Source of the DNA: Roseofilum halophilum BLCC-M91
GTDB taxonomy: Bacteria > Cyanobacteriota > Cyanobacteriia > Cyanobacteriales > Desertifilaceae
Length of the DNA: 33,712 nucleotides
Direction: 5' to 3'
Assembly: GCF_030068445.1 (NCBI RefSeq)
Contig: NZ_JAQPOK010000095.1
Location: forward strand, 1-33,712
Below the pieces are notes generated by a model, which was given only the letters and a program-made list of their open reading frames with translations, searched no databases and was not told where the DNA came from. Shown here one piece after another: positions 5,368-16,322 of this stretch (position 1 is its first letter; every line of letters starts with the position of its first letter). Position numbers and translations under genes: made by a program.

Positions 5368-8300
5368 ATGGCTCCTGTTCCTGAGTCGATCATTGAAATT
5401 GAGCTAGATCCAGCCTTACCTATCAATTCTGTACTGGAAGGGTTGAAACTTTGGCAAGATTTGGGAATTTTAACCGAGGATTCCGTCTATCTCTGCTTGA
5501 AAGTGGATACCCGTCATCCCCGTTTCTTAGAAGGGTTAGAAATTGGCTTACGTTTAGGTTTAATCGATCCCTTACGGGTAAAACAGATTGCCCATAATTA
5601 TCTGTGTTGTACGATTCCAGAACCCCAAAAGATCGCGCCCCAGGTGATTGCGCCACCGGTTGCAGAACAACCCCCGATACTATCAACACCGGTTTTAAGG
5701 ACTGCCCCCACGGTTTTTAAACCCAGTTGGATCGGGCAACGCTTAGAGTCTTTGAAAGCAGAATTAAGCGTGCGCTGGTTATTATTTTTAGGGCTATTTC
5801 TCGTCGTTCTCTCTTCTGGGGTATTTGCTGCCAGTCAATGGGAAAATTTCCCTGCCATAGCCCAATATGGGGTGCTGTTAGGATATACGTCTTTGTTTTG
5901 GTTGATTAGTCGTTTAGCCAGTCAGAAAGAGAATTTAGAATTAACCTCACAAGCCCTAAAATTGGTTACATTGCTTTTAATTCCGGTCAATTTTTGGGCA
6001 ATGGATGACTTTGGGTTATGGAGTCATCCTGTTAATGGTTTAGCGAGTCTGGGATCGGCGGTATATTTAACGGTTATGGCTGGCTCCCTCTGGCAGACTA
6101 AAACTAGGGTTTCTTTGGGCTTCCCGATTTATCTTCTTGCCAGCTATCTCCATTGGGGTTGGGGTGTCCCAAATTTTCCCATTTTTTCGGTTTATTTGGC
6201 AACTCTGGGCAGCTTAGGATTCTATGTCTATCAGTTCCAAAATCTGCAAAATTCTTTGAAACAAACGCTGCGACTGAGCCGCTTAAGTCTTTATGCGATC
6301 GGTATTCTACTGTTTCGTGCGATTTTTGTGCAAGGGGTTGTTTTACCTCATTTAGGTTTAGCGATCGCTCTCTGTGGAACTTTCACCGTTTGGCTGTCTT
6401 TCACCCGTCGCTCCCAATACCATAAACCGATCAATCGCCTGGGTTTAACTCTGCTATTTTTTGCCTGGTTTGTCTCTATCTGGGTAACATTTCCTTGGCA
6501 AGGGGTAGTTATTAGTTTAATTGCGACACAAATCTACCAGCAATTTATTGCTCGCTGGCAACATCGGCGCGATCTGGCGATCCTGTGGTTGATTGGGGTG
6601 CAGATGTCTCTGCTGCTGTGGAGCTTTGTTCCTGAGATGTTACAATCGCAGATTATCGCCACAGCAGTAGAGATTACCCAAGCGCAAGAGGTGCCGATCG
6701 CTCTCATCAGTGCGATCGGATTGCCTTACCTCATCTGGATCGTTCATATGGGCGATCGCTTCTATCGACGGGAAAAACCGAAACTCGCCCATTTTTCCGA
6801 GTTTGTTGCTCTGGGGTTAGGCATTAGCTTACTGATTTTCAGTTTTCCTAATGCCATTTTACGGATTTTCTGTTTAACTAATTTGGTGTTTCTGCTGATG
6901 TGGGTAACCAAGCGGCGATACGATCTGCACATTCTGCATTCGTTTCACTTGCTTGTCTACCTGAATCACTGCACCGGATTAGCCCTTCTTTTAAGCCTGA
7001 TTCATTATGTCAACTCTAACTTAAGCTTAAACACTTGGGCGCTGATTTTGCTGGCAATGACGGTTATGGAATGGTGGTTTTCCGATCTGCGTCGTTCCCT
7101 AGAACCGAGTGAGTATGAAAAGATTTGGCAACAAAGCGCTTGGTTGATTGGATTTGGGTTAGGGGCGATCGCCTATTTACTCCTGTTCTCTACCCTAAAA
7201 GAGTATACTTTTACTTTCGCCCATCTCCCTTGGCTCGCCATCCCTGCAACCCTTACCCTGATTAGCTATTCCCCCCACTCCCATAAACAAGATCTCGCGC
7301 CTAAATTGAGTATCGTGATGCTCTTTTTAGCTCAAGCCTTGGTGTTGGAAACTCCAGGATGGCGCGTTTTCGGGCTGGCAGTGGCTACCCTCATCATGGT
7401 GTTCAATACCCGTAAACTGCCCCATATTGCCACTGCTACCCTTACCATGGGTTGTGCCTTAAGTGCCCTAGGATTAATTTTGTGGGATCTGGTTCCGGGA
7501 ATGCCTCCTGCGATCGATCCCCTGTGGTTAATGCTGGGGGCGATCGCCGCTTCCCCATTGTGGGGAATCCGTCATTATACGTTACGCAAAAGTATTCCCC
7601 ATTACACTCAAGCGCTGGATATTTGGGCGATCGCCCTCTGTGGCACAGTTCTCACCCTCCAGGGCATTTGGGTAAGTCAAGAACTGCTCACTCCCACTTA
7701 TCTCTCCATCAGTACCAGTATGCTCCTCAGTGGTGCAACCGCCTATCGCAGTTGGTATCCGAAACCCAAACCCACCGCCATCGGATGGAGTAGCGCGGCT
7801 GTCATGGTGGCGGTTTTACCGACGATGAAGGTTTTCGATCTCAGGTGTTTAAGTTTACTGGTTGCTACCTTTATCTTCATCGGTCATAGTCGCTATTCTC
7901 GTCAACTGTACCTCACTGCCATGACCGTTGGCTTAGGATTAGTCACCGAGCGCGTCATTTTATCCGATTGGATCGACATTCCCTCAACCACTTGGTGGAT
8001 CGTCGGTGCAGTCAATGTTCTCGGATTATGGATCGGAGCCAAACACCTGCGCTTAGGTAAAGCACAATGGCAGCGCCAGTTAACCCGACTTTATCGTAAA
8101 AGTTTCCATGGATGGGCGATCGCCCTCTGTCTCTTTTGCTTAACCCTCCTCACCCTCCATTCCGTCCTCGTTTACATCAACACCATCCCCCCCCAAATCA
8201 CCGTTTTTATCAGCTTAATTCTGCTCTTTATCGCCCTTCTCTACAGTCAGAAAACCCGCCCCCATCACCCCCTAGGGGCGGGTTTATTCAGATTTTGGGA

Positions 8301-10179
8301 AAACAGCCAAACAACTGGTGAACCCGCCCCGTATAGTCAAACCCAAAACCCCCGTCATTCCCTAGGGGCGGGTTTATTCAGACTTGGGGAAAACAGCCAA
8401 ACAACTGGTGAACCCGCCCCGTATAGTCAAACCCAAAACCCCCGTCATTCCCTAGGGGCGGGTTTATTCAGACTTGGGGAAAACAGCCAAACAACTGGTG
8501 AACCCGCCCCTACTATCACCAACTGGAAATTATTGGCGATCGCATGGACAATTGAACTGTTAGCCGTAGAAACCCTAGCCAGTTTTGACTCACCCATTAT
8601 TAACCTTGCCCTAGTTAACCTCATTTTGGGCTTATGCGCTCAACTGTTCGGCGACTGGTGGAGTTCAAAACAGCCCAGCGAATCCCAAAATCTTCGGGCA
8701 GCTTGGCATATTATCCCCCTAGCTTATGGCATTTTAGGGGCGCTGCTTCGTTGGGGAACCGTTTCCAGTTGGACAGGAGTCACCACCCTAGCCCTAGCGA
8801 TTATTATCCTCGGTATCGGCAAGCGATCGCCGAAATTTAAACCCCTCATTTATCTTGCCCTCGCTGGAGTTACCGCATGTGCCTACGAACTGCTCTTTTA
8901 CCAACTCTCTTTACAACCCTCTGGAGCAACCGGAGATGGACTCATTCTCATGGCAACCCTAGGAAGCGGTATCCTCTACGCCTATCGCCTACTAGGGAAA
9001 TTTTTACGCCCCTATTTCCAATTGACCTCTAGAGAATTTCGCTCGATTTGTCATCTCCATTGGTTCGCCTCTAGCCTACTCCTAATCATCGCCACTTTTA
9101 ACCCCATTCAACAAGGAATGACCCTAGGATTTGCCACCGGTGCAACCCTAGTTCTCTACGCCATCAGTCAAGGTCGCAGAGCAAACTCTCCCGTGTCTAT
9201 AGCCCCCTCTCCCGTGGGAGAGGGGGTTGGGGGAGAGGGCACATCTCCCGTGGGAGAGGGGGTTGGGGGAGAGGGCACATCTCCCACAGGAGAGGGGGTT
9301 GGGGGAGAGGGCACATCTCCCGTGGGAGAGGGGGTTGGGGGAGAGGGCACACCTCCCACAGGAGAGGTCAAACCCCAAGAATTATGGGTCTATCTCGGAT
9401 TTTTAGAAGCCCTAGGAATGCGCATTTACTGGCTCAATACCCCCATCGCCCAACTCTTAGGGGGGCCGTTAGTGGCTTGGAAAGGAGCCATTGCTACCCT
9501 GTTTGCCTACTTTCTCTACTTCCTTCCTTGGCAAACCTGGGGATGGTCAAAACGCCCCTGGCAACTGGCTGGCATTGCGATTCCCCTGTATGCCATGGTC
9601 GAGAATCCCACTATTTTGAACCAAGCCAGTCTGGTGGTAATTGCAGCTTACTATATCGGATTGGCGATCGCCAGCAAACAAATTCGCTTTACCTACCTCA
9701 CCGTAGCCGTCCTCAACTGGATCATCTGGCGATATTTTCTCGAAATTTCCATTACCGAAATCTTCTGGTACGCCCTCACCATCAGCCTTTCCCTCCTCTA
9801 CATTATCCAAGTCGATCCCCTCTTAAAATCCACCCAAAACCGCAAACTTCGCCATAACCTGCGTACCCTAATTTCTGTCATCATCAGTTTAACCTCCTTT
9901 ACTGCCCAACAATGGATCGGCACACTCACCGGAACCCTCAGTTTACTCACTATTTTTGCCGGACTCTCCCTCAAAACCCGCGCCTTTCTCTATGTTGGAA
10001 CCACCACCTTTTTACTCAACATTTTCTATCAGTTAGGAATCCTCATTTTTGACTATCCCTTCTCCAAATGGTTAGTCGCCCTAGGAGTTGGCATTTCCCT
10101 CATCTGGATTGCCGCCACCTTTGAAACCCGGCGCGAACAAATTCAAGCCTGGTTCCAAGAATTACAACACTGGGAGTAA
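5368..10179 (+). CDS. Giant multi-span membrane protein (DUF2157-like)
   Basis: This gene encodes 1603 residues. The N-terminal 125 residues are soluble (ENSVLEG-like helices, then a Pro-rich hinge). After that come very many hydrophobic helices, probably more than 30, to the end. The opening RWLLFLGLFLVVLSSGVFAASQWENFPAIAQYGVLLGY resembles the start of DUF2157-type membrane proteins, of which cyanobacteria have very long versions. No catalytic motif is seen and I do not know its function. Two hydrophilic loops (about residues 960-1047 and 1277-1333) are built from tandem DNA repeats kept in frame (30- and 12-residue units). The start ATG follows a 27-bp dispersed repeat and lacks a clear Shine-Dalgarno. 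It may be read with the upstream CheA gene (82-bp gap, same strand), but nothing proves a functional link. Confidence 0.75.
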   Translation: MAPVPESIIEIELDPALPINSVLEGLKLWQDLGILTEDSVYLCLKVDTRHPRFLEGLEIGLRLGLIDPLRVKQIAHNYLCCTIPEPQKIAPQVIAPPVAEQPPILSTPVLRTAPTVFKPSWIGQRLESLKAELSVRWLLFLGLFLVVLSSGVFAASQWENFPAIAQYGVLLGYTSLFWLISRLASQKENLELTSQALKLVTLLLIPVNFWAMDDFGLWSHPVNGLASLGSAVYLTVMAGSLWQTKTRVSLGFPIYLLASYLHWGWGVPNFPIFSVYLATLGSLGFYVYQFQNLQNSLKQTLRLSRLSLYAIGILLFRAIFVQGVVLPHLGLAIALCGTFTVWLSFTRRSQYHKPINRLGLTLLFFAWFVSIWVTFPWQGVVISLIATQIYQQFIARWQHRRDLAILWLIGVQMSLLLWSFVPEMLQSQIIATAVEITQAQEVPIALISAIGLPYLIWIVHMGDRFYRREKPKLAHFSEFVALGLGISLLIFSFPNAILRIFCLTNLVFLLMWVTKRRYDLHILHSFHLLVYLNHCTGLALLLSLIHYVNSNLSLNTWALILLAMTVMEWWFSDLRRSLEPSEYEKIWQQSAWLIGFGLGAIAYLLLFSTLKEYTFTFAHLPWLAIPATLTLISYSPHSHKQDLAPKLSIVMLFLAQALVLETPGWRVFGLAVATLIMVFNTRKLPHIATATLTMGCALSALGLILWDLVPGMPPAIDPLWLMLGAIAASPLWGIRHYTLRKSIPHYTQALDIWAIALCGTVLTLQGIWVSQELLTPTYLSISTSMLLSGATAYRSWYPKPKPTAIGWSSAAVMVAVLPTMKVFDLRCLSLLVATFIFIGHSRYSRQLYLTAMTVGLGLVTERVILSDWIDIPSTTWWIVGAVNVLGLWIGAKHLRLGKAQWQRQLTRLYRKSFHGWAIALCLFCLTLLTLHSVLVYINTIPPQITVFISLILLFIALLYSQKTRPHHPLGAGLFRFWENSQTTGEPAPYSQTQNPRHSLGAGLFRLGENSQTTGEPAPYSQTQNPRHSLGAGLFRLGENSQTTGEPAPTITNWKLLAIAWTIELLAVETLASFDSPIINLALVNLILGLCAQLFGDWWSSKQPSESQNLRAAWHIIPLAYGILGALLRWGTVSSWTGVTTLALAIIILGIGKRSPKFKPLIYLALAGVTACAYELLFYQLSLQPSGATGDGLILMATLGSGILYAYRLLGKFLRPYFQLTSREFRSICHLHWFASSLLLIIATFNPIQQGMTLGFATGATLVLYAISQGRRANSPVSIAPSPVGEGVGGEGTSPVGEGVGGEGTSPTGEGVGGEGTSPVGEGVGGEGTPPTGEVKPQELWVYLGFLEALGMRIYWLNTPIAQLLGGPLVAWKGAIATLFAYFLYFLPWQTWGWSKRPWQLAGIAIPLYAMVENPTILNQASLVVIAAYYIGLAIASKQIRFTYLTVAVLNWIIWRYFLEISITEIFWYALTISLSLLYIIQVDPLLKSTQNRKLRHNLRTLISVIISLTSFTAQQWIGTLTGTLSLLTIFAGLSLKTRAFLYVGTTTFLLNIFYQLGILIFDYPFSKWLVALGVGISLIWIAATFETRREQIQAWFQELQHWE
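8245..8510 (+). repeat. In-frame 90-bp tandem repeat with GGGGCGGGTT palindromes
   Basis: Copies start with CCTAGGGGCG at 8271, 8361 and 8451, an exact 90-bp (30-codon) period. Each holds a 56-bp palindromic-ended core, GGGGCGGGTT...AACCCGCCCC (for example 8275-8330). It codes for GAGLFRLGENSQTTGEPAP-type units in a loop between two membrane helices. Confidence 0.9.
9208..9366 (+). repeat. In-frame 36-bp tandem repeat (CTCCCGTGGGAG type)
   Basis: Units start at 9208, 9244, 9280, 9316 and 9352 (the last partial), a 36-bp period. Each has CTCCC..GGGAG dyad symmetry (CCGT or CACA centre) followed by GGGGGTTGGGGGAGAGGG. It encodes 12-residue SPVGEGVGGEGT repeats in a loop of the giant membrane protein. 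Confidence 0.9.
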
Positions 10180-10217: not shown

Positions 10218-11561
10218 ATGAAAATCCAACAAATTTCTATTACAGGCTTATTTGGTGTCTTCGATCATGTCATCCCTCTAAATCAAGAGGATCGCATCAC
10301 TATCATTCACGGCCCCAACGGTTTTGGCAAAACATCAATTCTCAGGTTAATAGATGGATTATTTAATGCCAAATATTCTGTTTTGAATAGTATCCCTTTT
10401 AGCACTTTTAAGCTCAATTTCAATGATGGAAATACACTCGAAGTATCAAAAAAAGATATCGATCATAACCCTGAGTCTAAACTTTGCATTTTTTCTTCTT
10501 TAAGTGAAGAGCCATTTTATCCAAAATCCATAAAATCTAACCTTGAAATGCCTGGTGATATCTTAGAAGATGTTCTGCCAGAAATTAAGAGAATCAGTAG
10601 AGACGAATGGCTATACACCCCAACCCATGATATTCTGTCGCTTGAAGAAATTATTTATCGATTTGCAAAACATAGAATCCCTGAAGGTTTTTTGAAGGAT
10701 ATCAAAAATCCAGAGTGGCTAGAAAAAATTCAAGAAAATATTCCTGTAAAATTAGTCAAATCTCAGCGATTATCATCATTTTATTCTTATAATAATTCTA
10801 AAAAAATGAATCAAGAATTTGGGATGGAATCGACCATTGTACAATATTCTGAAAATTTAGCAAGTTCAATTCAACATGCGCGGAGTGAATATGGTAGAGT
10901 ATCACAATCTTTAGACAGAACATTTCCAGCCAGATTAGTTAACCAAGACAGTGAACCTAAATTTACCAAACAGGAGCTACAAGATCAATTGGATAGACTA
11001 GAAAAATATCGCTCGCATTTAATAAGTTTGGGATTACTGGATAGGGCTGAAGATACTGAATTCCAGATCCCGCAAGGAGAGATAGATGAAAGCACTCAAA
11101 GTGTTTTATCAGTTTATATTGAAGATGTGAATAGCAAGCTAGGCGTTTTTCAAGAAATTGCAAATAAAATAGAACTACTCAGGAAAGTCATAAACCATAA
11201 ATTTCAATATTCTTATAAAAAAATAGAGTTTAATCAAAAGGATGGATTTGTGGTTAGCTTATTCGATCATCCCTTATCTTATGATGACAATGGGAAATAT
11301 TTAGAACTCACGGAATTGTCCTCTGGTGAACAACATGAATTGGTCTTACTTTATGAGCTTTTATTCAAAGTAAAACCTAACTCTTTGGTTTTAATTGACG
11401 AACCTGAACTCTCTCTCCATGTGGGATGGCAATCTGAGTTTTTAGAAGATTTGCAAGAAATTATTAAGCTTGCAGATATAGATATTCTGATGGCAACTCA
11501 CTCACCCGATATTATCCAAGATCGTTGGGATTGGACGGTAGAACTAAAAAGACCAAAATAA
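10218..11561 (+). CDS. AAA/ABC-type ATPase, AriA-like partner of a DUF4435 protein
   Basis: This gene encodes 447 residues. Walker A is GPNGFGKTS (32-40), the ABC signature LSSGEQ (367-372), Walker B LVLIDEP (390-396), and the switch histidine is in MATHSPDII (H428). The middle is a long helical insert without clear motifs. This is the compact AAA_15/AAA_21 (OLD/SMC-like) type of ATPase. The next gene starts inside its stop codon (TAATG, 1-base overlap) and is a DUF4435 TOPRIM-like protein. That pair is the layout of PARIS, where the ATPase AriA holds and releases the AriB effector on sensing a phage anti-restriction protein. GGAG (10208-10211) precedes the ATG by 6 bases. The gene is AT-rich and has no GCGATCGC octamer, unlike its neighbours, which suggests transfer. 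The PARIS link is an inference from domain pairing. Confidence 0.8.
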   Translation: MKIQQISITGLFGVFDHVIPLNQEDRITIIHGPNGFGKTSILRLIDGLFNAKYSVLNSIPFSTFKLNFNDGNTLEVSKKDIDHNPESKLCIFSSLSEEPFYPKSIKSNLEMPGDILEDVLPEIKRISRDEWLYTPTHDILSLEEIIYRFAKHRIPEGFLKDIKNPEWLEKIQENIPVKLVKSQRLSSFYSYNNSKKMNQEFGMESTIVQYSENLASSIQHARSEYGRVSQSLDRTFPARLVNQDSEPKFTKQELQDQLDRLEKYRSHLISLGLLDRAEDTEFQIPQGEIDESTQSVLSVYIEDVNSKLGVFQEIANKIELLRKVINHKFQYSYKKIEFNQKDGFVVSLFDHPLSYDDNGKYLELTELSSGEQHELVLLYELLFKVKPNSLVLIDEPELSLHVGWQSEFLEDLQEIIKLADIDILMATHSPDIIQDRWDWTVELKRPK

Positions 11562-12197
11562 TGAGAGATCAACTTACTCCCGATCGTGAGGCTAATGCGA
11601 TTCGGCTTAAACGCCAAACGTTTACCGGTGCTTTTTTATTGGTGGAAGGAGGATCGGATAAGAAGTTTTACCAACGTTTTACCCATAAAAATTGTGAAAT
11701 TGAAGTGGTTTCAGGTAAGCCTTCCAGTAAACAGCGAGTGATACAAGTTTTGCAAATTTTGGAAAACGATAATTTTGCAGGAATTTTAGCTATTGTCGAT
11801 GCCGATTTCGATCGCCTGGATAATCTTGAATTTTCTAGTCCAAATCTGTTGCGTACTGATACCCACGATTTAGAAACGATGCTAAGAAGTGATTAATAAG
11901 TCGAAATTGTATTCACTAAAAGTTTCAGAGTTACAGGAACGTCTGAATCAACAGAAAAGTGACGATCATGATCCTTGGCAAGTCTGCTGTGGACATCACT
12001 TAGTGGAAATTCTTTCCTTAGCCTTATGCAAAGCGATTGGCAATCAAAAGCAGACGGAGGTAAAAGCCGATCGCTTGGAGATTTGCTTACGGTTGGCTTA
12101 TGAAGAGGATTATTTTCAAGAGACTCAACTTTACCTCAAGATTTGTGCTTGGGAAAGGGATAATAAAAATTTTACGATCGCACGAAGATTTTGTTAA
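11561..12197 (+). pseudogene. DUF4435 (TOPRIM-like, AriB-type) gene, broken by frameshift/deletion
   Basis: The first frame (111 codons from ATG 11561) carries LLVEGGSDKKFY (E29), SGKPSSKQRV and AIVDADFD (D80, D82), the acidic residues of a TOPRIM-like fold. It then reads HDLETMLRSD and stops at 11894-11896. The +1 frame reopens at 11889 and gives the matching family end: DPWQVCCGHHLVEILSLAL, LRLAYEEDYFQETQLY and AWERDN. The two halves are one gene. Family members, as I remember them, have several tens of residues between these motifs that are missing here, so an internal deletion with frame loss near 11884-11896 is likely. A two-base alternative, programmed frameshifting or a sequencing error, would explain the frame but not the short length. 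It is coupled to the ATPase gene by TAATG. Confidence 0.75.
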
Positions 12198-12232: not shown

Positions 12233-12934
12233 ATGATTCCCATCCGCGATACCCAAGTCATCTCTCGCCCATCACCGATCTGTTATGGTTTAATCGGGTT
12301 AATGTTGGTAGTTTTCATAGCAGAAATTCACTGGGATTTTACTGGAGAATTGTCCGATTGGGTGAGCTATTGGGGCATGATTCCCAGGGAGATCGCCAGA
12401 TTGGGGCAAGAGGCAATTATCAGTGATAATCCGGCGGTATGGGTAGTGTTTATCTGGCGATGCTTTGCTATTCTACCAGCGATATTTCTCCATGGTAGCT
12501 ATGCCCAAATTTTGGGGAATTTAATCTTCTTATTTGTGTTTGGCAGACGGCTCGAAAGTGTAATGGGGCGATGGAAATTTCTGGGGTTTTACCTGCTCAG
12601 TGGTGTGGTGATGGGTTTGATCCGAGTTTTCCTCGATCCGGATGTGGCTTTACCGATTATTGGTGCAAATGGGGCGATCGCCGCTCTCCTCGGTGCGTAT
12701 GTTATCCGGTTTCCTAAAGCGAAAATAGAAACCCTGCTGCCCTTGCTGATTGTGTTTATCCCCATTGAACTCCCAGCCCCATCTTATCTGTTTTGGTGGT
12801 TCTTGCAGCAGTTTTCCTACGGTATTGGCTCGTTAAACGTGCAGGTTAACCCCCTCACCCCTGGCTATGTGCTGCAACAAATGCTGGCGATGGGTTGGGG
12901 AATGGCGATCGCCTTCACTCGGCGTTTAACGTAA
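12233..12934 (+). CDS. Rhomboid-family membrane protein lacking the catalytic serine
   Basis: This gene encodes 233 residues from ATG 12233. MIPIRDTQVISRPSP matches the usual rhomboid beginning, so the upstream 14 in-frame codons are left out. HGSYAQILGNLIFLFVFGRRLESVMGRWKFLGFYLLSG is the typical TM2-TM3 region with its conserved His and Asn. The active-site motif GxSG is replaced by GANG (144-147, Asn146). The last helix has no histidine where active rhomboids have the base. It therefore looks like a pseudoprotease, perhaps a binding or chaperone protein in the inner membrane. About six helices are visible. Its 3' end overlaps the convergent ParB-like gene by 9 bases. Confidence 0.8.
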   Translation: MIPIRDTQVISRPSPICYGLIGLMLVVFIAEIHWDFTGELSDWVSYWGMIPREIARLGQEAIISDNPAVWVVFIWRCFAILPAIFLHGSYAQILGNLIFLFVFGRRLESVMGRWKFLGFYLLSGVVMGLIRVFLDPDVALPIIGANGAIAALLGAYVIRFPKAKIETLLPLLIVFIPIELPAPSYLFWWFLQQFSYGIGSLNVQVNPLTPGYVLQQMLAMGWGMAIAFTRRLT

Positions 12935-13618
12935 CCAATCAATTAACTCTCCTTTCTTCAGCTTAGAATAGCCCGATAATCCCCGTTCTTTAGCAATTTT
13001 CTTCAACTGGGAAACGGTTAAACTGTTGAGATCCGTCGGCTGCATCTCCTCCTGCGGTTCCTGCATGGTGCTACTGGCTTGAGCAGACAGATAAAAAACC
13101 TCCTTAAACGCATTCAGCTTTGCCCCTTTGGTGATGCCGCACTTGAGCTGAGTTACGTCCCTTAAACTCGGTTTCCAGGTTGGGCGCGGCGCTTCAAAAA
13201 TGCGACTGGTGGCAACTGGCAGTTTTACCCCCTTTAAGGGATTAACAGCACGATGGATTAAGTAATCTAACCCCCGGTGAATGTCGTCAACCGTTGCCGT
13301 GGCTAAGTCAATTTTTGGTAAGCGCTCTTGCGAAAGTAACTCGCAGGCGGTTTGAGTGGCTTCTGAATCGTCAGCAATGATACACCAGACTTTTTCTAAG
13401 CCCGCTTCTTCAGCCACGGCATAGGCGAACATATTACTAATAACTTGGTAGCGATCTTGACCCATTTGTTTGACGATGATGGGGAGCCAGTTGCGATCGC
13501 CTGCTCGACTGACTGCCTTAGCCGTTTCCTTAATCAAAAACTCATGGATCTTTACCGGTTCTCCCGGCTCAATTTCCTCTAAATAGAGATAGATGAGAGC
13601 GCCAATTTCCTGTTTCAT
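12926..13618 (-). CDS. ParB-like protein with C-terminal SAP/Rho-N motif
   Basis: This gene encodes 230 residues. The stretch LPIIVKQMGQDRYQVISNMFAYAVAEEAGLEKVWCIIADD (45-84) has the shape of a ParB/sulfiredoxin-like N domain. It lacks the arginine-rich GERR box that binds CTP or cuts in ParB relatives. The end, LNSLTVSQLKKIAKERGLSGYSKLKKGELIDWL (198-229), is a clear SAP/Rho-N helix-extended motif, which usually binds DNA or RNA. The ATG overlaps the stop of the ParA gene (TAATG), so the two are co-translated and probably work together. I cannot assign an exact job; a DNA-binding partner of the ParA fusion is the natural reading. Confidence 0.65.
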   Translation of the reverse strand: MKQEIGALIYLYLEEIEPGEPVKIHEFLIKETAKAVSRAGDRNWLPIIVKQMGQDRYQVISNMFAYAVAEEAGLEKVWCIIADDSEATQTACELLSQERLPKIDLATATVDDIHRGLDYLIHRAVNPLKGVKLPVATSRIFEAPRPTWKPSLRDVTQLKCGITKGAKLNAFKEVFYLSAQASSTMQEPQEEMQPTDLNSLTVSQLKKIAKERGLSGYSKLKKGELIDWLR

Positions 13619-14976
13619 TAGATAAAATACTCCTGAACTAATTCCTTATAAGAAGCCAACACTTCCTTATTGATATATGCCGCCGGTTTACGCTTAAATA
13701 CCGCATTGGAAATATGGGCATGATTTTTAAGCAAAAACACATCCATATTTTTAGTCGATGAAGTGTATTTTGGGAAAAAATAGGGCTGTAAATCTGAACC
13801 AAAGTCTTTTTTGTGAGATTTAATAATTCTGATAATAGCATTCTGAGCCTGTCTTTGTTGGGCATCCGTCATCGTTTCTCCATTATAAAAGATAGGTAAA
13901 GCCGTAGGGTTATCCGCATCCGGGGATAAAATATCTCGCCTGCGGTTGCCCACCTCTGGCAAAAATTGAGAGATGGCTAAAGCCGCATTTTCTAAAGAAG
14001 CTAAATTATTATGTTTCGTCGGAATTAATACCACATCAGCCGCCATCACTGCCTCTTGGCTAAACAGTTGCCAATTGGGAGGAGAATCAATAAAAATATA
14101 ATCATACTCATTCCGCAGGGTTTGCAAAACTTGTCTTAGTCTCCCCCTAGTCACTTTTGCCGTTAACTCCTGTTCTTTCAAGCGTAGAAACATTTCATCG
14201 GCAGGAATGAGATCAAAACCCAATTCTTTTCCCGACTTGAGTTTCTGTCGATACTGGGCGATCGCCTCTTTGATATGATGGTTTCTATAATCTTCTAAAC
14301 ACTGATATAATCGAGTCGAAGCAGGCTGTATTTCTAAGCTATGGGTTAAATCTCTTTGGTTCGGATCAAAATCGATCGCCAATACCTTTCTCTGCGATAA
14401 ACTCAAGGCAGCAGCAACATTGAGAGTCGTTGTGGTTTTGCCTACTCCGCCTTTATTATTATAACAAACCACAAATAGCGCCCTAGCCGTCTGTTTCAAG
14501 TGTTGTTTAATATCTGCTACTTTTTGATCGATATTTTCGGCATTTAAGGGCGTAAGTTGGGTAACCGGAAAAACTACTTTTCCATGTTTACGAAAGAGTT
14601 GAATCGCGTCTCCATTGGTAATGATTCCCCAGCGCACGGATTTACAGTTAGTGGCATCCGGAGAAAGATAACGCTTAAGTTGATTCACCGTTGCCTGATA
14701 TCGGGTAGACTGGTTAAAGTTAACTTCTCTGCCTTTAATTTCAATCAGTAAAAAAGGGTCTTGAGGCTTGTCTAAAAAACTCTGATTGTTTTTATTCTTA
14801 CGAGCAGCAAAATCAACTTTATCATTGCCCCTACCCGTCGGATATTCGGGATAATACTCATGATTGCCAAATCCTAGGGCATCTAATAAAACGGGCATGA
14901 AGTTATGGTTAACAATGGATTCTTGAGCGTTTTGGGGAAGGGATAACCAAGCCTTCTGGAGTGCAGATTGGGTCAT
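13618..14976 (-). CDS. ParA-type ATPase fused to an N-terminal HsdR_N-like nuclease domain
   Basis: This gene encodes 452 residues. The first 160 look like the PD-(D/E)XK domain of type I restriction subunits (HSDR_N): VLLDALGF, YPEYPTGRGNDKVDFAAR (D55) and PFLLIEIKG (E79-x-K81), then WGIITNGDAIQLFRK. The rest is a ParA/MinD-type P-loop ATPase with YNNKGGVGKTTTTLN (deviant Walker A, 175-183), LAIDFDPNQRDLT, DYIFIDSPPNWQLFS and a C-terminal helical region. ParA proteins normally form DNA-bound gradients for segregation. Joined to a nuclease-like domain and to a ParB-like SAP partner, this looks more like a defence or plasmid-control device than housekeeping partition. Both GKT and the nuclease triad look intact. 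Confidence 0.75.
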   Translation of the reverse strand: MTQSALQKAWLSLPQNAQESIVNHNFMPVLLDALGFGNHEYYPEYPTGRGNDKVDFAARKNKNNQSFLDKPQDPFLLIEIKGREVNFNQSTRYQATVNQLKRYLSPDATNCKSVRWGIITNGDAIQLFRKHGKVVFPVTQLTPLNAENIDQKVADIKQHLKQTARALFVVCYNNKGGVGKTTTTLNVAAALSLSQRKVLAIDFDPNQRDLTHSLEIQPASTRLYQCLEDYRNHHIKEAIAQYRQKLKSGKELGFDLIPADEMFLRLKEQELTAKVTRGRLRQVLQTLRNEYDYIFIDSPPNWQLFSQEAVMAADVVLIPTKHNNLASLENAALAISQFLPEVGNRRRDILSPDADNPTALPIFYNGETMTDAQQRQAQNAIIRIIKSHKKDFGSDLQPYFFPKYTSSTKNMDVFLLKNHAHISNAVFKRKPAAYINKEVLASYKELVQEYFI

Positions 14977-14992
14977 AACGTCAGGACTGTAA

Positions 14993-15021
14993 GTATAATA
15001 GATTCACATTCAGGATTGTAA
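14993..15021 (-). promoter_or_regulatory. Putative sigma70 promoter of the ParA-fusion operon
   Basis: On the minus strand, TTACAA (15021-15016) and TTATAC (14998-14993) are 17 bases apart. The -10 lies 16 bases before the ATG at 14976. The implied leader is very short. Confidence 0.4.
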
Positions 15022-15293
15022 CTTACTTAGATGTTAAAGTCTAATTTTTAATCAAAGTGTTTTATTTCTTTACATAAATATACAGGGGTTGGAGTCCGCT
15101 CTACTTCAGTATTGATTGGAAAATCATAGTAAAATGGGAAGGTTGTCTGAAAAGCGATCGCCAAATTGTGCAAGCACTGCAAACTGTATCAACATAAAGA
15201 GCAAGCGAGCGAGACGCTCGCACTCCTCAGAATCTAAGATCCATTGTTTCCGCGATCGCCGACATGAAAATTGTTAATTGTTCATTTATATCT
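15022..15293. other. Intergenic region with hairpin and heptamer repeat
   Basis: This is the gap between the divergent ParA-fusion operon and the M23 gene. It holds a perfect hairpin, GCGAGCG-AGA-CGCTCGC (15205-15221), and a HIP1-like GCGATCGCC (15253). At 15269-15289 there is a run of the ATTGTTA/ATTGTTC heptamer repeat also seen at 27.3-28.1 kb and 29.7 kb. I see no RNA gene in it. Confidence 0.6.
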
Positions 15294-16322
15294 ATGAAGT
15301 TCCTCAAACTGAACCGTATATCCACTATATTACTTGTCTTTCTGGGCGTAATCCTCTTTACCAGTTGTGGACTGTTGAGTAATAGTAACGCCCAAACCCA
15401 AACTTGGCCAAAATTTGCCCAACCCATTCAGTGTTCTTTAGGAGAAGATTGTTATATTCTCCGCTATGTAGACCGCGACCCAGGGCCGGGGTATGTGGAT
15501 GTGGGATGCGGTCGGATGACCGATGATGGCCACTCTGGAACGGATTTTGGTATCCCCGATGAATGGGCGATGGAGCAAGGTGTACCGGTGCTTGCGGCGG
15601 CTCCTGGACGGGTGTTGCGGGTGCGGGATGGGGTGGAAGATCGGCGGATTACCTCTCAGGCAGAGTTAGAGGCGATTGAAGGTATGAATTGTGGCAATGG
15701 CATGGTCATCGATCATGGTGAAGGTTGGGAAACCCAATATTGTCATCTGCGCCAGGGAAGTGTGGCGGTGCAACCGGGAACGGAGGTCAAAACGGGCACA
15801 ATGTTGGGGATGGTGGGGTCGTCTGGGGAGTCTTCCTTTCCCCATGTGCATTTGACGGTTCGCTATCAGGGGAATGTGGTCGATCCCTTTGTGGGGCCGG
15901 AAGCGGGGCCGGGATGTAATGTTTCAGGTAATTCTCTGTGGAGTCAGGAAATCAAATATACTCCAACGGGGTTAATTCGGGCGGGTTTTGCCAGTGAAGT
16001 GCCGGATCTCGACCGGGTGTGGTCGGGTGAGTTTCGCAACGAGCAGTTATCCTTGCAGGGGGGAGCCTTGGTGTTCTGGGTGCATGGGTTTGGGGTGTTA
16101 CAGGGAGATGAGGAATACTTGCGAGTGGTCGATCCCCAGGGTCAGACGATCGCCGAAAACAAGACAGTGCGCGATCGCCCCAATCGCATCATCTTAGCCT
16201 ATGCGGGCAAGAAAAACACCCCAGATCGCCCCCTCATTCCCGGCACTTGGCGCGGCGAATATCACCTTAAACGGGGCGATAAAACCCTAATTAACGTGAC
16301 TCAAACCGTTGAAGTCAAGTAG
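15294..16322 (+). CDS. M23-family metallopeptidase, probable lipoprotein
   Basis: This gene encodes 342 residues from ATG 15294. The upstream in-frame ATG (15264) would add 10 residues encoded by heptamer repeat DNA, so the inner start is preferred. The signal peptide ends in LFTSC (Cys25), a lipobox-like site. The zinc-peptidase motifs are complete: H80-SGT-D84 (HxxxD), Y149-C-H151, and PHVH with H184 and H186. The C-terminal half (from about 215) is a beta-rich extra domain of unknown type. M23 enzymes cut peptidoglycan cross-bridges, and an active one anchored in the envelope would act in wall remodelling or division. An extended insert before NGMVIDHG (residues 107-133) is longer than usual. 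A strong terminator follows. Confidence 0.85.
   Translation: MKFLKLNRISTILLVFLGVILFTSCGLLSNSNAQTQTWPKFAQPIQCSLGEDCYILRYVDRDPGPGYVDVGCGRMTDDGHSGTDFGIPDEWAMEQGVPVLAAAPGRVLRVRDGVEDRRITSQAELEAIEGMNCGNGMVIDHGEGWETQYCHLRQGSVAVQPGTEVKTGTMLGMVGSSGESSFPHVHLTVRYQGNVVDPFVGPEAGPGCNVSGNSLWSQEIKYTPTGLIRAGFASEVPDLDRVWSGEFRNEQLSLQGGALVFWVHGFGVLQGDEEYLRVVDPQGQTIAENKTVRDRPNRIILAYAGKKNTPDRPLIPGTWRGEYHLKRGDKTLINVTQTVEVK

Follow-up and report, generated by a model that had tools for sequence, protein, structure and literature searches.

The window analysed here is a stretch of 33,712 nucleotides (nt; positions 1–33,712 of contig NZ_JAQPOK010000095.1) from the cyanobacterium Roseofilum halophilum BLCC-M91. On its minus strand, positions 12926–14976 hold an operon of two genes, in which the gene for a predicted nuclease–ParA fusion of 452 amino acids (aa; 13618–14976) is followed by the gene for a ParB-like partner of 230 aa (12926–13618). 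In the list of open reading frames (ORFs), the start codon of the partner overlaps the stop codon of the fusion by 1 nt (TAATG), and the initial annotation of this DNA, made from the sequence alone, had placed both ORFs here and called the partner coupled. The fusion, which has Pfam matches to HSDR_N_2 and AAA_31, comprises an N-terminal PD-(D/E)XK domain of the HsdR_N type (residues 1–160, 14497–14976) and a ParA-type ATPase with a C-terminal region (residues 161–452, 13621–14496). The partner, also on the minus strand, comprises a ParB_N-like fold that lacks the GERRxR arginine box (residues 31–94, 13337–13528) and a C-terminal Rho_N/SAP motif (residues 196–226, 12941–13033). We refer to the two genes as the pair.

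Domains of the fusion and its partner

Pfam places HSDR_N_2 at residues 19–130 of the fusion (E 1.7e-5, 25.3 bits versus a cut-off of 25), and MmeI_N follows with an E of 1.4e-4, under its cut-off. Among 29 N-domains of the family, 21 match HSDR_N_2, 15 HSDR_N, 5 MmeI_N and 4 PDDEXK_3 at E ≤ 0.01. A confident sequence match for the N-domain was not found in the PDB. Across 29 homologues, which go down to ∼20% identity with the window protein, invariance within the N-domain is restricted to E19, G35, D55, E79, K81, G117 and N121. Four of these residues make up the tetrad EDEK (E19, codon 14920–14922; D55, 14812–14814; E79, 14740–14742; K81, 14734–14736; minus strand), which is intact in 74 of the 75 distinct homologues (window copy included) whose N-domain is near-complete; E19 and E79 are invariant in all of them. 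The sole exception, L148 from genome G195, has glycine for D55 and threonine for K81, and retains ParA and the partner.

We modelled the fusion with AlphaFold2, using an alignment of only 7 sequences. The best of five models has a mean predicted local distance difference test score (pLDDT) of 75 (57–69 for the others), with values of ∼80–95 in the N-domain. The modelled N-domain runs HHH-EEE-H-EEE, where the second strand contains D55 and the third ends with E79 and K81, and such placement of D and ExK is the motif order of PD-(D/E)XK enzymes. Sequences and model taken together contain E...D...ExK in the alpha-beta-beta-beta-alpha-beta order of the superfamily. The initial annotation had read an HSDR_N-type N terminus with a D–ExK set and had called for structure prediction as a check; the Pfam matches and the order seen in the model agree with it, D55, E79 and K81 stand where it had put them, and E19 joins the set. 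These data support an HsdR-type PD-(D/E)XK domain with a conserved active site, a predicted nuclease. When compared with Roseofilum relatives, the N-domain has a ratio of nonsynonymous to synonymous substitution rates (dN/dS) of 0.07–0.19 in four of five pairs (dS is >1 in two of those, and was not computable for the fifth pair), values which show a signature of purifying selection.

The remainder of the fusion is a ParA-type ATPase. AAA_31 covers residues 169–326 with an E of 4.3e-32, the deviant Walker A motif KGGVGKT noted in the initial annotation is intact and begins at K175, and K175, K180, D204 and D297 are invariant in 29 of 29 homologues. A Foldseek search with the fusion model gave 1478 matches, of which the 50 listed are all ATPases of the ParA/MinD type, with McdA, Soj and pNOB8 ParA at an E of about 1e-10.

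For the window partner, Pfam reports Rho_N (7.5e-9), SAP (3.9e-6) and ParB_N (1.2e-4), the last under its cut-off. A model of the partner built on 6 sequences (pLDDT 81; predicted template modelling score 0.46) resembles ParB, Noc, KorB and PadC structures, with a best Foldseek E of 1.9e-6. In a weak match to Spo0J (E 0.048), GERRYR of Spo0J pairs with NMFAYA of the partner, and on this basis the arginine box is absent. The GERRxR box of ParB binds CTP; with NMFAYA in its place, a canonical CTP switch is unlikely in the partner. The annotated ParB-N-like partner, without an arginine box and with a SAP/Rho-N end, is thereby recovered by Pfam, Foldseek and the Spo0J alignment. We scanned the partners of six other family members: ParB_N is above cut-off in two class-C partners (38.6 and 26.9 bits), Rho_N is above cut-off in two, helix-hairpin-helix (HhH) matches are all under cut-off, and no profile match was found for the partners of L187 and L092.

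Pairing of fusion and partner is regular. A homologous partner is present at 68 of the 74 loci that have enough downstream sequence (L036, which ends at a contig edge, was set aside), and single-linkage clustering by BLAST puts all 68 together. By class, the counts are 38/43 for class A, to which the window copy belongs, 20/20 for class C and 10/11 for the others; the loci without partner are L143/L166, L183, L184–L186 and L129. When loci are grouped roughly by genus, the partner is found in 30 of 34 groups and the next commonest neighbour gene in 5. Beyond the partner, the family has no general neighbour gene.

The closest named relative of the window fusion, from Roseofilum acuticapitatum (L034), is 97% identical. 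In another copy, L006, identity to 12926–14976 is 98% in the nuclease domain, 90% in ParA, 75% in the C-terminus and 99% in the partner, and this mosaic divergence suggests recombination of the C-terminal part of ParA.

Distribution and plasmid context

At E ≤ 1e-40, 45 of 386 cyanobacterial genomes match the class-A profile; at least five of these matches are partial or interrupted by a stop, and a few represent relatives that are more distant. The class-C profile matches 58 of 373 genomes at E ≤ 1e-60, some of them without the N-domain. We fetched 42 regions around class-A matches; contigs of 1.7–6.8 Mb hold 18 of them and shorter contigs the others. Confinement of the homologues to plasmids, one part of what the initial annotation had named as refuting its reading, is therefore not what is seen. 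With the class-B query, six plasmid records were retrieved at E ≤ 1e-20. Five of them align over 80% or more of the query, two of these five being from strains of one species, and the sixth is a class-A plasmid. The class-C query found no match among 72,556 plasmid records at E ≤ 1e-30. None of 47 loci that are by title outside cyanobacteria (L041–L087), collected via their ParA part, has an N-domain match at E ≤ 10 in its main ORFs. Viral contigs yielded no match to the patterns of fusion and partner. Among 50,697 phage records, none matches over the N-domain; the partner is without a match in phage records, and nine records match the ParA part of the fusion only. The two-gene fusion/partner module is cyanobacterial and accessory in distribution.

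Within genera, the pair can be widespread. In genus g52 it is present in 10 of 12 species, with a stop in one copy. One of the pair-less g52 genomes, G420, has a contiguous site without the segment L173:6904-10833, with flanks that are 97% identical; the 3.9 kb missing there comprise both genes of the pair in full and a further 1.5 kb or so. The corresponding region of G421, also pair-less, is rearranged. An M23 peptidase gene stands beside the Roseofilum pair in 5 of 6 genomes, among the matches listed. Six class-A pairs from genera g45, g61 and g52 (L167, L169, L170, L171, L175 and L190) have ATP synthase genes, named by eye from sequence, no more than about 9 kb away; this vicinity may be an ancestral place or a hot spot. 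In two g52 genomes (L171 and L173), ORFs beginning MARVPVISKDGKPLMPTKPSRARRW adjoin the pair and may encode IscB-like proteins.

We also built a tree of 106 ParA domains, which has an arbitrary root, an unsure placement of the long branch L018 and perhaps a few truncated rows. Several nuclease-less cyanobacterial relatives fall inside nuclease-bearing clades, and the nuclease domain has thus probably been lost repeatedly. Besides its one full-length fusion, the source genome contains three further matches, each limited to the ParA part. A nuclease-less pair of this genome (L211:4031-5601, contig C12) consists of a 285-aa ParA and a 236-aa ParB-like partner, for which ParB_N is above cut-off (39.6 bits) and HhH gives a weak match. 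It is followed, within L211:4031-7610, by a 390-aa ORF that by eye is like a cytosine methyltransferase, and the region also holds an ORF of 264 aa in convergent orientation, for which Pfam gives no match. Split class-C copies in G068, G320 and G334 were considered as separate nuclease and ParA genes, and this was rejected; judged by model positions, the breaks fall inside the ParA part, and we read these copies as broken genes.

Plasmid-borne copies are most informative in Nostoc sp. UHCC 0870, where three co-resident plasmids (unnamed4, unnamed9 and unnamed10) each carry the pair. Between unnamed4 and unnamed9, Rep is 94%, ParM 96% and relaxase 96% identical, versus 53% for the fusion and 58% for the partner. 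The class-B plasmid unnamed10 shares 92–96% (Rep), 96–98% (ParM) and 93% (relaxase) identity with the other two, versus 25–29% for the fusion and 32–33% for the partner. The next least similar genes shared by these plasmids are 71–80% identical. In the tree, the unnamed9 copy groups with that of G408 (on a 7.6-kb contig), and the unnamed4 copy with that of G118, near ATP synthase genes; given these groupings, movement between plasmid and chromosome is likely.

Sixteen related Nostocales plasmids were compared (14 of 32 records with a 597-aa backbone gene and 2 of 39 with Rep), some covered in part and with an incomplete gene table: three have the pair, six have restriction-modification (R-M) genes, and seven have neither in the stretch covered. 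The R-M plasmids are unnamed8, unnamed6, unnamed5 and pCENA543d, together with pCENA543e and PCC 7712 unnamed13, which have a methyltransferase only. The annotated integrase lies 0.5–2.4 kb from the pair and 0.2–5.4 kb from R-M genes; as these distances vary, the two appear to share a cargo region rather than one exact slot. Annotated ParM and/or ParA genes are present on 8 of 13 pair-less plasmids, which argues that the pair is not generally needed for plasmid upkeep.

Neighbouring genes and known systems

In the window, a PARIS-like pair at 10218–12197 adjoins the operon, as the initial annotation had proposed. The AriA-like ORF (10218–11561) is whole, but AriB is split into two ORFs, which match residues 1–120 and 201–302 of an intact 302-aa relative and lack the part corresponding to residues 121–200. 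In the Roseofilum relative G005, the side of the pair that carries rhomboid and PARIS-like genes matches the window, and PARIS-like genes are thus known in 2 of 6 Roseofilum genomes, the window's and G005. The argument for a defence island from this neighbour is weakened accordingly, with AriB disrupted in the window. Pfam identifies the four ORFs scanned beside the fusion as AAA_15, DUF4435, rhomboid and the partner. Farther off, at 5368–10179, a 1603-aa ORF contains in-frame repeats, ENSQTTGEPAPYSQTQNPRHSLGAGLFRLG and SPVGEGVGGEGT, as if repeat DNA had expanded within the gene.

The initial annotation had suggested surveying neighbourhoods for defence enrichment; no clear excess was found by PADLOC, with 117 families matched by 148 neighbour proteins versus 122 by 148 controls. 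Cases were the partner-excluded nearest proteins (up to five each, 100–700 aa) at 30 class-A profile loci, and controls came from 19 regions 100–200 kb away in the carrier genomes; from 153 + 153 picks, all of L038 (case), all of L210 (control) and two of L209 were left out. Among the matches listed, the case proteins include two AriA-type ATPases (the window's being one), a single MTase_II and a single mREase_IV, and the top list for the controls includes CRISPR genes. One caveat here is that only the top 25 of the 117 and 122 families are given, rather than the proteins with a match, making this a weak test. Two individual neighbours deserve mention. At L170:9826-11600, a pair of an AAA_21 ATPase and a DUF4276 protein, with HEC-01A/B as best PADLOC match, adjoins the G195 fusion that has no nuclease site. 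At L034:2355-4257, about 4 kb from the R. acuticapitatum pair, an AAA_21 ATPase stands with an unmatched 255-aa ORF in a layout that resembles ATPase–effector defence pairs.

How does the pair compare with systems already described? Like ParABS (Soj/Spo0J, and plasmid ParA/ParB), it has a ParA with a deviant Walker A motif and a coupled downstream gene for a ParB fold. Unlike ParABS, its ParA bears an extra N-terminal nuclease domain, its partner lacks GERRxR and a Pfam helix-turn-helix match and ends in SAP (HhH in relatives), it is often chromosomal and accessory, and no parS array is seen upstream; a scan of window positions 14900–15400 found no direct repeat and one short palindrome, although single parS sites could escape it. 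The HSDR_N_2, HSDR_N and MmeI_N matches and the E–D–ExK set are shared with the N-terminal domains of HsdR and MmeI. In the fusion, however, this domain is joined to ParA and not to a methyltransferase or to a helicase motor as in Type I restriction, and the neighbouring window ORFs scanned with Pfam include neither HsdM nor HsdS.

PARIS joins an ATPase to an effector, as the pair does, but the pair belongs to different ATPase and effector families, has no AriA or AriB match in Pfam or PADLOC, and merely has PARIS as a neighbour. Wadjet (JetABCD) couples a chromosome-organizing ATPase to a nuclease against plasmids, with an SMC-type motor and a different nuclease; the likeness is one of idea only, and homology is not expected. 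PADLOC PDC-M28B has a ParA-like ATPase part from about residue 120 of the model, and matches weakly over the Walker A stretch (E 7e-7 for the window fusion, 1e-9 and 1e-5 for relatives). That match is limited to about 35–46 ParA residues, leaving nuclease domain and partner unmatched; in PADLOC-DB 2.0 as a whole, the fusion has only short matches in its ParA part and the partner none. In line with the initial annotation, searches of Pfam, PADLOC, NCBIfam, PHROGs and the open-access literature yielded no named system of this layout, and the available passages of PMC5379612 and PMC5512222 do not describe a nuclease–ParA fusion. The parts are known already, and their combination as a conserved cyanobacterial module appears to be new.

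Possible functions of the pair

Our preferred reading, to which we assign a probability of roughly 40%, is that the pair may be a replicon-interference (exclusion) module of ParA/ParB type, armed with an HsdR-type PD-(D/E)XK domain. Replicon interference seems to fit best because it accommodates the conserved catalytic residues, the regular pairing, the accessory distribution, the cargo space shared with R-M genes and the divergence of co-resident pairs. Interference or exclusion in particular is favoured because sibling plasmids carry R-M genes in the same cargo region and co-resident pairs diverge. The defence-type ATPase–effector pairs beside the window and G195 copies were counted in its favour. 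A defence or plasmid-interference system had been suggested in the initial annotation; the architecture, the Nostocales plasmid context and the empty site speak for it, whereas the PARIS-like neighbour and the neighbourhood survey do not.

In such a module, the ParB-like partner would bind DNA via its SAP or HhH end and, once bound, recruit an ATP-bound ParA dimer, which would set two nuclease domains on the DNA. Replicon DNA taken as non-self would be cut, and ATP hydrolysis stimulated by the partner would free the complex where the DNA is tolerated. What we infer here is the binding and cutting of DNA, the gating of activity by the dimer, targeting through the partner and the definition of foreign. 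Possible, if doubtful, is a novel form of self/non-self discrimination between DNA molecules, with a surveying ParA that bears its own nuclease and a ParB-like adaptor by which DNA is labelled as tolerated or as target. A segregation machine would then rule which plasmids or chromosomes persist, and would be encoded on cyanobacterial chromosomes and on rival plasmids of one cell.

Several observations weigh against replicon interference. The pair occurs in 6 of 6 Roseofilum genomes, in g52 it sits among housekeeping-type genes common to several species, and the N-domain is under purifying selection, a picture unlike that of fast-moving defence islands. Nuclease-less versions exist, in the source genome among others, and five class-A loci have no partner. 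In the flanking sequence fetched, AriA/AriB homologues adjoin the pair in only one of five Roseofilum relatives (G005), among the matches listed, and the PADLOC counts for neighbours do not exceed those for controls. The upstream repeat scan gave no hint in the sequence of how targets would be chosen. UHCC 0870 is one strain and the single case of three such plasmids, and the divergence among its co-resident plasmids could reflect incompatibility just as much as interference. Finally, on the 12.6-kb plasmid ABRG53g, a class-B pair is the only annotated ParA-type gene, which suggests partition.

The last two points lead to an alternative that we consider unlikely but credible, namely a partition or incompatibility module, in which ParA and partner would segregate or position DNA and the nuclease domain would act on it in the process, for instance by nicking entangled copies. 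It would account for the ParA and ParB-type folds, for ABRG53g, which also has a CyRepA1 gene, and for the persistence of nuclease-less modules; that plasmids of the same backbone differ in the pair when co-resident is expected of an incompatibility determinant, and is explained equally well. Conversely, most pair-less related plasmids (8/13, above) have ParM and/or ParA of their own, the CTP-binding arginine box is lost, a parS-like repeat array is not seen upstream, and a conserved nuclease tetrad is needless for a partition ATPase. Many copies are chromosomal, for which reason plasmid-only partition was rejected as a general reading. The pair can also be viewed as a host module for genome maintenance (repair or copy handling in polyploid cyanobacteria) that takes no part in conflict. 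This is distinctly improbable: the stable place in Roseofilum and g52, the low dN/dS, the lack of class-C matches on plasmids and the proximity to ATP synthase genes in three genera are consistent with it, but most searched genomes have no match, and the empty site, broken copies and plasmid-borne forms argue otherwise.

We see even less chance that the pair is a classic anti-phage system of defence islands. An HsdR-type nuclease domain would suit one, as would the PARIS-like genes beside the window copy, the HEC-01-like pair beside the G195 copy and the single MTase_II and mREase_IV matches among 148 neighbours; against this, neighbours show no clear excess over controls, the PARIS-like pair is found in two of six Roseofilum genomes and is broken in the window, and no phage record has a match covering the N-domain. 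That the N-domain is only a DNA-binding relic is highly improbable, since the tetrad is kept in nearly every homologue while most other N-domain columns vary, even if one natural member (L148) without D55 and K81 keeps both ParA and partner.

Should the nuclease be active, ParA/ParB modules would be a further case, besides SMC complexes, of segregation machinery made into weapons, and the pair would represent a fairly common, unnamed cyanobacterial system by which plasmid host range and coexistence may be set. Such a system would be relevant to keeping foreign DNA in cyanobacteria used for biotechnology, and the co-resident Nostoc plasmids offer a direct test case for the specificity of the pair.

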